DNA of 64,000 bases from Woeseiaceae bacterium. GTDB taxonomy: Bacteria > Pseudomonadota > Gammaproteobacteria > Steroidobacterales > Woeseiaceae. Within the stretch, counting starts at the first letter, position 1. Each line of letters starts with the position of its first letter. Position numbers and translations under genes: made by a program. The DNA is taken from the NCBI GenBank assembly GCA_030065915.1, contig JASJCQ010000017.1, forward strand, positions 1-64,000, written 5' to 3'. Below the pieces are notes generated by a model, which ran no database searches, was not told where the DNA came from, and worked only from the letters and a program-made list of their open reading frames with translations. Below, piece after piece: positions 3,184 to 7,781 of this stretch.

Positions 3184-3435
3184 CTAGAGCAACTGTTTCT
3201 GCTCCGGCTGCCAATGGGTCAGGCTGATATGAGCAGCCCCCATTCCCAGACCACGCACCCACCGTGCTGCGGCGTCCAGTGACACCCAGGTCTTGACCTG
3301 ACCTTTCAGTGTTGCCGCGGTCACCGGCCCCGTTGGTGTATTCGCCTCGATATGAAAGCGATTTCCGCTGGCGATGATATTGATCTTCTTCACCGCGCCG
3401 GCGGCAACCAGTGCCTTGAGCATCTTTTCATGCAT
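3184..3435 (-). CDS. Small ParC-like partition-associated protein (tentative)
   Basis: The 83-residue protein has the pattern of a small family that I associate with plasmid partition-associated ParC/KorC-type proteins. A predicted beta-hairpin region (KINIIASGNRFHIEANT) is followed by the signature KTWVSLDAAARWVRGLG and the tail HWQPEQKQ. I chose the ATG at 3435 because it lies just after the stop of the RHH gene. Longer in-frame starts would overlap that gene and add no plausible sequence. The two genes form a compact operon with a four-base gap. Whether the pair acts in partition, regulation or is a plasmid relic is unknown. Confidence 0.55.
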   Translation of the reverse strand: MHEKMLKALVAAGAVKKINIIASGNRFHIEANTPTGPVTAATLKGQVKTWVSLDAAARWVRGLGMGAAHISLTHWQPEQKQLL

Positions 3436-3439
3436 CGAT

Positions 3440-3619
3440 TCAACTCCGGGTTTTGCTTGTCTCATTGACGGGAATGCCGCTCTGTTCGCAATGGCGGCGA
3501 ATAAGAACCTCAACCATGTTCGCGACGCTGCGATGTTCACGCTCGGCCGCGGCCTGAACGGCCGCTTTGACGTTAGGGTCAATGCGCAGGTTGAGCGTGG
3601 AAATCTTGGTGCGAGCCAT
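3440..3619 (-). CDS. Ribbon-helix-helix (Arc/CopG-like) DNA-binding protein
   Basis: This 59-residue protein begins MARTKISTLNLRIDP, a short beta-strand with alternating residues. Helix one follows (VKAAVQAAAEREHRS), then the turn SVANMVE and helix two (MVEVLIRRHCEQSG). That is the whole RHH fold, and such proteins bind DNA as dimers. It is the first gene of a two-gene operon and probably represses its own promoter through the inverted repeat at 3620-3658. No toxin-like partner is evident. The downstream gene is not a recognisable RelE, HicA or PIN toxin. Confidence 0.75.
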   Translation of the reverse strand: MARTKISTLNLRIDPNVKAAVQAAAEREHRSVANMVEVLIRRHCEQSGIPVNETSKTRS

Positions 3620-3658
3620 GCGTTACATATTAACGTAATACGCGTTTAAATGTAACGC
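3620..3658 (-). promoter_or_regulatory. Inverted-repeat operator/promoter abutting the RHH start codon
   Basis: GCGTTACAT at 3620-3628 and ATGTAACGC at 3650-3658 are perfect nine-base inverted repeats. Between them lie further TAACG/CGTTT half-sites (3631-3635, 3643-3647). A TAATAT box on the minus strand (3632-3627) would place the transcript start at or next to the ATG at 3619. There is no ribosome binding site before that ATG, so a leaderless messenger is likely. The site suits autorepression by the RHH protein. Confidence 0.55.
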
Positions 3659-3826
3659 ACTTTATGACGCTGTCTGGTTCAGCTCCATTGCCTTGCGGGC
3701 GTTTGTTTCGAACGGTCAAGTCCGGTACAACGAAGTTGCTTGACCGAGAACCGGTACGCGCCCCGACAGTGGGCTCGTAAGAGCCACGTAATTGAGCAGA
3801 CAAGCCACACGAGCCAGGATGACGGA

Positions 3827-6726: not shown

Positions 6727-7596
6727 ATGATTAGGGAAATCAAGCGTTCCGCGGCGTCGGGCTACGTCATGTTGGCTGTCTTGATAACGGCTCTGCTGAT
6801 GATTGGCGCTTTCTTCGTAATGAGTATTCGCTCCGGCAATTTGCCTGGCGTCTTCTCCAGCGTGCTGCTGTTCCTGGTCAACATCTTCCTGATGGCGGGC
6901 TTTTTTCTCGTACAACCGAATGAGGCCAAGGTACTGCAGCTGTTCGGCGAGTACGTCGGTACCGTGCATGAGCCCGGGCTGAAGTGGGCCAACCCTTTCT
7001 ACAAGAAGACCGCGGTGTCCACGCGCGTACGCAACTTCGAGAGCGGCAAACTCAAGGTGAACGATTCGCAGGGCAGTCCGATTGAAATTGCCGCGGTGGT
7101 TGTATGGAAGGTCTACGACACGGCTGAGGCGCTGTTCGAGGTCGACGATTACGAGCAGTTCGTGCAGATTCAGAGTGAGTCGGCACTCAGGAACCTGACG
7201 ACGACCTATCCCTATGAACCGGACGAGACAGAGTCGCTGGCACTCCGATCGAGCCCGGCCGAGATCGCGATGGCGTTGAAAGAAGAGATCCAGGATCGCC
7301 TGGAGCAGGCCGGAGTCACCGTTATTGAGGCTCGCATCAGCCACCTGGCCTACGCGCCGGAGATCGCTAACGCGATGCTAAGAAGACAGCAGGCCTCTGC
7401 GATCATTGCCGCGCGACAGCAGATCGTGACGGGCGCCGTGGGTATGGTCGAGATGGCGCTGGAGCAGCTGAATGAGCACTCGGTGGTCGATCTGGACGAA
7501 GAGCGCAAGGCGGCGATGGTCAGCAACCTGCTCGTCGTACTTTGCGGCGAAGAGAATGCGAAGCCGGTGCTCAACACCGGTACTTTACACACCTAG
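6727..7596 (+). CDS. SPFH/Band 7 membrane-scaffold protein
   Basis: This 289-residue protein has two N-terminal membrane helices (about 17-39 and 47-72). An SPFH/prohibitin-like domain follows, beginning [18 protein letters not shown] and including [20 protein letters not shown] and [14 protein letters not shown]. The rest is a helical region with ILRRQQA-like flotillin character ([20 protein letters not shown]). SPFH proteins oligomerise into membrane microdomain scaffolds and often protect or organise proteases. The ATG at 6727 follows GGGAGAA. The gene is first in an operon with an Arc-like regulator, a pairing I know from many bacteria. Confidence 0.88.
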
Positions 7597-7616: not shown

Positions 7617-7781
7617 ATGCCGGCAAAGAAAGCATTTGCGCTTCGAATGGACCGGAAGACGCTGGACGCGATGCAGCGTTGGGCGAACGACGATCTGCGC
7701 AGCTTAAACGCGCAGATCGAGTTCGTTCTCCGGGAAGCCTTGAGAAAGCAGGGACGCCTGCCCAAAAAGGACCAGGACTGA
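7617..7781 (+). CDS. Arc-family ribbon-helix-helix protein
   Basis: This 54-residue protein begins MPAKKAFALRMD, giving the beta-strand, followed by KTLDAMQRWANDDLRSLNAQIEFVLREALRKQ, the two RHH helices with the typical SLNAQIE turn. I start it at the ATG at 7617, because the longer frame overlaps the SPFH gene end and adds non-family sequence. It lies 20 bases after the SPFH stop. It probably autoregulates the operon through the palindrome at 6688-6711, since Arc-like dimers contact half-sites about one turn apart. No toxin is adjacent. Confidence 0.8.
   Translation: MPAKKAFALRMDRKTLDAMQRWANDDLRSLNAQIEFVLREALRKQGRLPKKDQD

Follow-up and report, generated by a model that had tools for sequence, protein, structure and literature searches.

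A conserved ribbon-helix-helix and ParC-like gene pair in Woeseiaceae, probably a leaderless and autorepressed operon

A stretch of 64,000 nucleotides from a Woeseiaceae bacterium (hereafter the window; contig JASJCQ010000017.1, positions 1 to 64,000) carries on its minus strand a small gene for a ribbon-helix-helix (RHH) protein followed by a gene for a ParC-like protein. Because the pair is conserved, its promoters share a near-invariant box with half-sites, and Shine-Dalgarno words are missing at the RHH starts, it is probably a leaderless, autorepressed operon that is inherited vertically. On balance, and with modest confidence drawn from comparative sequence analysis, we favor a chromosomally fixed, autorepressed two-gene operon that consists of a defence-type RHH autorepressor and a ParC-like partner. 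We infer that the RHH protein binds its own operator and represses the operon, and that the message is leaderless; RHH dimers would occupy half-sites that recur every 11 bp, roughly one turn of the helix, between the -35 box and the start codon, the bound protein would exclude RNA polymerase and hence shut off its own promoter, and the transcript would start at or next to the RHH ATG. For the ParC-like protein, our best guess is that it most likely serves as a partner of DNA-bound complexes, since ParC domains elsewhere follow the RHH protein ParG or stand in front of PaaA-type antitoxins; it might partner the RHH protein or other such complexes, either as a co-repressor or as a modulator that releases repression.

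The RHH gene (3440-3619, minus strand, 59 codons) was defined by open reading frame and a Pfam RHH_1 match, and the ParC-like gene (3184-3435, minus strand, 83 codons) by open reading frame and profile searches; both frames of the compact pair announced in the original prediction are thus present. The two genes are separated by 4 nt in the window, as opposed to an 8-bp overlap in 23 of the 26 copies listed. Compared with the related locus L002, third codon positions account for 17 of the 19 nucleotide changes in the RHH gene and for 22 of the 23 in the ParC-like gene, with two and zero amino-acid changes, respectively; given this pattern, both genes look to be coding and under purifying selection. 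The ParC-like frame also stays open 5' of its own ATG for part of the RHH gene, so that a spurious ORF of 132 codons with a TTG start results (3184-3582, minus strand). Among RNA elements in the window, a tRNA alone reached the gathering score.

The family assignment of the first protein, for which a profile search had been proposed, holds, as it scored 21.5 bits against Pfam RHH_1 and thereby exceeded the curated cut-off of 20.5; among 26 relatives, RHH_5 matched 24 and RHH_1 matched 7 at E <= 0.01. An AlphaFold model of the monomer (pLDDT 65, middling) contained two helices only, and a Foldseek search with this model gave no useful match and one meaningless one. Weak similarity was found to the RelB/DinJ and TacA1 antitoxins. 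An identification of the protein as ParG was rejected, as its profile did not align with ParG of plasmid pJB12; in the rows listed, ParG and the window RHH protein also matched differently labelled plasmid genes.

With regard to the second protein, the claim that it resembles ParC was borne out, with a qualification as to family membership. The window protein scored 16.2 bits against the NCBIfam ParC model NF041544, below the equivalog cut-off of 95, yet 25 of 25 aligned relatives matched this model at E <= 0.1 (best 7e-6), and hhalign of the ParC-like profile against 13 ParC domains gave a probability of 98.6% (E 1.4e-15) over 81 columns; judged from these profile comparisons, the protein is therefore a distant ParC-domain homologue and not a member by the NCBI rule. 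The curated ParC model itself had matches in 4 of 274 genomes of the class, all of them below the cut-off, and in none of 14 control genomes. Searches of Pfam, NCBIfam, PHROGs and PADLOC at E <= 1 connected the ParC-like product with no toxin family. The AlphaFold model (pLDDT 66, middling) suggests an alpha-beta-beta-beta-alpha-beta order; Foldseek returned nothing at E <= 0.001 for it, and in a search with a profile built from 22 ParC domains, no protein of solved structure stood out as a convincing relative (FlgA, E 0.024). Kinship of the fold with ribosomal proteins was considered and dismissed, the best VIA-align 2 score (Z 6.2 over 67 residues, rmsd 2.9) being too low. The portions of the literature searched contained nothing on the molecular function of ParC, and no papers were found on the ParC family of partition-associated proteins or on ParC of PromA plasmids. 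ParC of plasmid pMF1 was set aside as a different protein because its authors describe it as helical in the available text (PMC7843461). A plasmid with parA and parC and without parB appears in part of PMC9501424; the accessible part of PMC7167474 contains nothing on a parA-parC arrangement without a parB-type gene.

ParC domains were seen in two other settings. On pJB12 and a Citrobacter plasmid, the gene order is parA-ParG-parC. In six loci (L131, L132, L133, L140, L142 and L143), the ParC domain stands at the front of longer proteins; in the first three, it is joined to an antitoxin segment of PaaA2-like or RelB-like type, and RelE/ParE toxin genes follow in L131, L140, L142 and L143.

The promoter in front of the RHH gene reads, on the minus strand, as a -35 element TTACAT (3650-3655), 17 nt, a -10 element TAATAT (3627-3632) that ends 7 nt before the ATG, and the ATG itself, all framed by an inverted repeat. 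The distal arm, TGCGTTACAT (3650-3659), coincides with a box that is nearly invariant in relatives, and the -35 element lies inside this distal half-site in a register that relatives conserve; the proximal arm, ATGTAACGCA (3619-3628), includes the A of the RHH start codon. The original prediction had described a perfect nine-base inverted repeat with inner half-sites that ends at the base before the ATG. The repeat is real and even longer, with arms that are perfect over 10 bp and part of a 17-nt pair (88%), and the gapped inverted-repeat pattern is found at one place in the window and in none of 100 shuffled sequences; its predicted end point was wrong, since the proximal arm contains the A of the ATG. 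An operator placed directly against the start codon is thus supported, the arm in fact reaching into the ATG, and an inner half-site CGTTA (3631-3635, minus strand) does occur 22 bp past the distal CGTTA.

Comparison among relatives points to regularly spaced putative binding sites. The box, with the consensus GCAAAATGCGTTACATT (given also as about GCAAAATGCGTTACATTT), is nearly invariant in 90 of 91 distinct copies; promoters were anchored on it in these 90 (L119 being the exception), and thinning at 75% identity left 75 promoters. In this thinned set, exact CGTTA words downstream of the box fell at +11 (11 cases), +22 (12) and +33 (4), i.e., 27 of 27 at these positions when 31 offsets were allowed, compared to a shuffle mean of 5.0 words; of 32 occurrences of the inverted word TAACG, 27 fell at +32, which amounts to 27 of the 75 promoters. 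With upstream offsets included, 28 of 30 CGTTA and 37 of 41 AACGC words lay on multiples of 11. Promoter-like AT-rich words such as CTATA and ATATA also look phased, an effect of the fixed register of the promoter, and the +22 signal is therefore not free of promoter constraint; part of this signal and of the invariance of the box, which covers the -35 element, may reflect such constraint. The whole genome contains a single exact copy of the 11-mer TGCGTTACATT, in keeping with local autoregulation; a role of the RHH protein as a global regulator was accordingly rejected as far as exact sites go.

The geometry of a leaderless promoter, postulated from the -10 box, is kept in relatives, with 6-8 nt between the -10 element and the RHH start in 74 of 90 copies (16 differ). 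Likewise, the reported lack of a ribosome binding site extends beyond the window, as none of the 91 distinct copies has a Shine-Dalgarno-like word (GAGG, AGGA or GGAG) before the RHH start, against 2.6 in shuffles; such words precede the ParC-like start in 37 of 91 copies (14.2 in shuffles). Since just 8 of the 48 long ORFs in the window carry such a word in front of the first start codon (20 if any start within the first 40 codons is counted), a missing Shine-Dalgarno word is by itself a weak argument for a leaderless message, and the position of the promoter is the stronger one.

The pair is widespread and single-copy in Woeseiaceae. An alignment-based search found the ParC-like gene once per genome in 87 of 107 Woeseiaceae genomes, including 40 of 45 high-quality ones, and an RHH gene of the same kind lies directly upstream in 87 of 87 carriers. 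The RHH profile matched 88 of the 107 genomes, once each; in the additional genome (G091, locus L149), the RHH gene is intact and the ParC-like gene has lost its middle part, which may represent decay or an assembly error. One single-contig genome (G105) lacks both genes. Outside the family, the pair is rare. In a draw of 369 genomes from the class, eight had ParC-like matches: two of these genomes belong to Woeseiaceae, four outside the family have the full pair (L049-L052; 4 of 367 class-draw genomes), and the remaining two, the weakest matches, have a ParC domain and no RHH gene of the same kind upstream. The three matches among 398 genomes drawn from the phylum were the window's own genome, one of the weak class-draw matches again and one ParC-antitoxin fusion.

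Comparisons of 91 distinct loci (87 from Woeseiaceae and four from outside) support vertical inheritance. The neighbours of the pair in the window are what we take to be DUF4389 and MOSC genes; a DUF4389-like gene follows the pair at no more than 400 bp in 56 of 91 loci (89 with 600 bp of flank), and a MOSC-like gene upstream in 26 of 91 (87 with flank). In genome G070 (L148), both flanking genes are present without the pair, a natural empty site. A tree of the 91 rows (124 columns, quick method, eight starred branches) shows each of the three large genera as one entire side of a branch. Judged from the single copy per genome, the genus-consistent tree and the neighbour shared by 56 loci, the pair is probably inherited vertically within Woeseiaceae and not mobile, and the same observations speak against a recent plasmid origin or mobility within the family, which the original prediction had entertained. 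Direct matches likewise gave no ground for a plasmid or phage origin, which was rejected on this count: the ParC-like protein had only weak matches on plasmids (seven records, best E 0.1), no match in phages and none confirmed in viral contigs. A blastn search of the operator region against plasmids returned nothing, although a search of this sensitivity misses even the boxes of L154, L155, L157 and L160 (see below), and the exact operator pattern was not found in viral contigs. Our literature search found no Woeseiaceae papers on leaderless transcripts or ribbon-helix-helix proteins.

Among the four pairs outside Woeseiaceae, neighbours were profiled for one (L126, genome G365), and there the RHH and ParC-like genes are followed on the same strand by type I restriction-modification (R-M) genes, HsdR-like (with an EcoEI_R_C domain) and HsdS-like; the first possible start of the HsdR-like gene lies about 170 nt past the pair. 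The HsdS-like protein of this locus has a GIY-YIG domain, and a TIR-like ORF is also present by eye. Inspection by eye, without profiles, further placed the pair near HicA- and HigBA-like genes in L124, near VapBC-like genes in L125 and near an integrase-like gene in L127.

A link to defence also emerged from relatives of the RHH protein on plasmids. A tblastn search at E <= 0.01 hit 64 plasmid records (best 7e-13), 52 of them from Escherichia. Ten plasmid loci were viewed (L151-L160; the nine best of the 20 listed and one Escherichia record); their RHH proteins are 34-56% identical to the window protein (BLASTP against L154, 48% over 40 residues), and in nine, one of them weak, a defence-type gene directly follows the RHH gene: type I R-like in L154, L155 and L160, type IIG in L153, type II methylase in L152, L156 and L158, Wadjet JetA-JetB in L159 (a Variovorax paradoxus plasmid) and, as a weak match, an HmaC-like ATPase in L151; an unclassified long ORF follows in L157. 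In L159 (1989-4147), the RHH relative stands directly before jetA and jetB, and the record labels jetA as ferrochelatase. Four of the 10 loci have a box GCAAAA(T/C)GCAGTACATT that agrees in 14-15 of 17 letters, lies at -44 to -47 and was in each case matched by 0 of 300 shuffles; the window box has 14 of 17 letters and starts at -46. In the other six, the best candidate was no better than in shuffles, no clear 11-bp signal came out of a lag analysis across all ten promoters, and several of these relatives have Shine-Dalgarno-like words by eye. By sequence similarity, the window RHH protein is thus related to small plasmid RHH proteins that often lead defence operons. In the window itself, no defence gene adjoins the pair, and the RHH gene is followed by the ParC-like gene and then the DUF4389-like gene.

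As a control, we used a second small, Arc-like RHH gene of the window (7617-7781, plus strand), which lies directly behind an SPFH-like gene (6727-7596; presumably SPFH). Plasmid relatives of this RHH protein (7617-7778) had an annotated defence gene directly behind them in 0 of 4 cases; one had a helicase about 400 bp further on, one a hypothetical gene and one nothing annotated, in what is a small set (4 of 10 records, by annotation only and without profiles). An SPFH-domain gene also precedes the control relative on Deinococcus, Parabacteroides and Prevotella plasmids, and not on a Thermus plasmid.

The pair shares parts with several known systems. Homology to ParC of NF041544 extends over the whole length, whereas the window protein falls below the cut-off of that family, has no ParA found beside it and is inherited vertically in Woeseiaceae. 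The plasmid RHH proteins that lead defence genes have in common with the window protein their RHH homology and, in four of ten, a box at nearly the same distance; they differ in their cargo, a defence-type enzyme instead of a ParC-like protein, in the missing box of the other six and in the Shine-Dalgarno-like words of several. The ParC domain is shared with PaaA-ParE toxin-antitoxin (TA) systems, where it is fused to the antitoxin segments described above, while the window's 83-residue protein lacks an antitoxin segment and the pair lacks a ParE gene; PaaR is the third component of PaaR-PaaA-ParE systems. A type Ib par operon likewise combines an RHH protein with repeated sites over the promoter, as does the pair with its 11-bp lattice of putative half-sites, but includes a ParA-type ATPase, and tblastn with two plasmid ParA queries (E <= 1e-3) found no ParA in the 91 loci. 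According to the available text of PMC5016525, RHH partition proteins bind repeats and some are also repressors, and the omega protein is reported to bind direct repeats much as it binds inverted ones; ParR of R1 requires two or more 11-bp repeats (PMC9426499, in part). ParG, omega and ParR thus resemble the predicted arrangement in that RHH dimers act on short repeats, which in R1 are 11 bp long (PMC5016525, PMC9426499); by contrast, they act with a motor gene, and the search for ParA, the one motor sought, found none at the pair. Finally, RptR, a small repressor of type I R-M loci, binds direct repeats in its own promoter ahead of defence genes (PMC12255303, in part), which resembles the autorepression predicted for the window protein; it differs in having 79 residues, helices reminiscent of HTH and TAGCTA-type sites, and the accessible text does not report it as an RHH protein. 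None of the four RptR site variants given there (PMC12255303) occurs at 3600-3719 by sequence reading. RptR is, as far as that text goes, an example of a small repressor that acts on R-M loci through repeats and has a different fold (PMC12255303); among the literature matches listed, judged by titles and the beginnings of abstracts, none concerned an RHH regulator of R-M loci.

Alternative readings share much of this evidence. We consider it unlikely that the pair is a variant of a type II TA system, in which an RHH antitoxin encoded first would mediate autorepression and the ParC-like protein would be the toxin. The gene order, the gene sizes and the 8-bp overlap in most copies listed would suit such a system, as would the weak similarity of the RHH protein to RelB/DinJ and TacA1 and the constant association of the ParC-like gene with an RHH gene in the 87 Woeseiaceae carriers, together with a genome (G091) that keeps the RHH gene beside a damaged ParC-like gene. 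The ParC-like product, however, matched no toxin family in the four collections searched, and in the TA loci seen here, ParC domains belong with the antitoxin, the toxin being a separate ParE/RelE protein. TA modules are usually not single-copy, vertical and strongly conserved, and the pair is all three. We assign a comparably small chance to a domesticated partition cassette, i.e., an RHH centromere-binding protein and ParC that have lost ParA and taken on a chromosomal role, for example in nucleoid organisation or segregation. This would account for the ParC-domain homology and the parA-ParG-parC order on plasmids; it also has parallels in RHH partition proteins that bind repeats and repress (PMC5016525), in the 11-bp repeats of R1 ParR (PMC9426499) and in CdbA, a chromosomal RHH protein of Myxococcus that is described as important for segregation and for the organisation of the nucleoid (PMC7156744). 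Against it stand the absence of ParA from the 91 loci with both queries, the failure of the RHH profile to align with ParG of pJB12, the differently labelled plasmid genes that the two proteins match in the rows listed, and the exact box, which occurs once in the genome and forms no centromere array.

A slightly smaller chance still is given to an anti-plasmid or defence-regulating device, in which an RHH switch would either govern a ParC decoy that disturbs plasmid partition or control defence genes in trans. Such a device would fit the RHH relatives that lead R-M and Wadjet genes (four viewed loci sharing the box), the coupling of the pair to type I R-M genes in L126 and a cargo homologous to plasmid ParC; control in trans sits poorly with a genome that has no second exact box, as far as exact sites go, and the window has no defence gene beside the pair and no plasmid blastn match for the operator region, albeit in an insensitive search. 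The most specific version is the most speculative, and we regard it as improbable: a Woeseiaceae-wide module that joins a defence-type RHH protein and a leaderless operator-start switch to a ParC-domain protein that disrupts incoming ParA-ParG-ParC partition complexes. If true, this module would turn a component of plasmid partition into a small device against plasmids.

The favored reading, an autorepressed chromosomal operon of an RHH regulator and a ParC-like partner, has consequences of its own. The pair links ParC partition accessories, ParC-PaaA antitoxin fusions and RHH regulators that lead defence genes, subjects that are usually treated apart; the last of these it joins by way of an operator that is shared in part. 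The reading predicts where the RHH protein binds, where the transcript starts and which protein acts as partner, and it would give ParC a simple stand-alone system.
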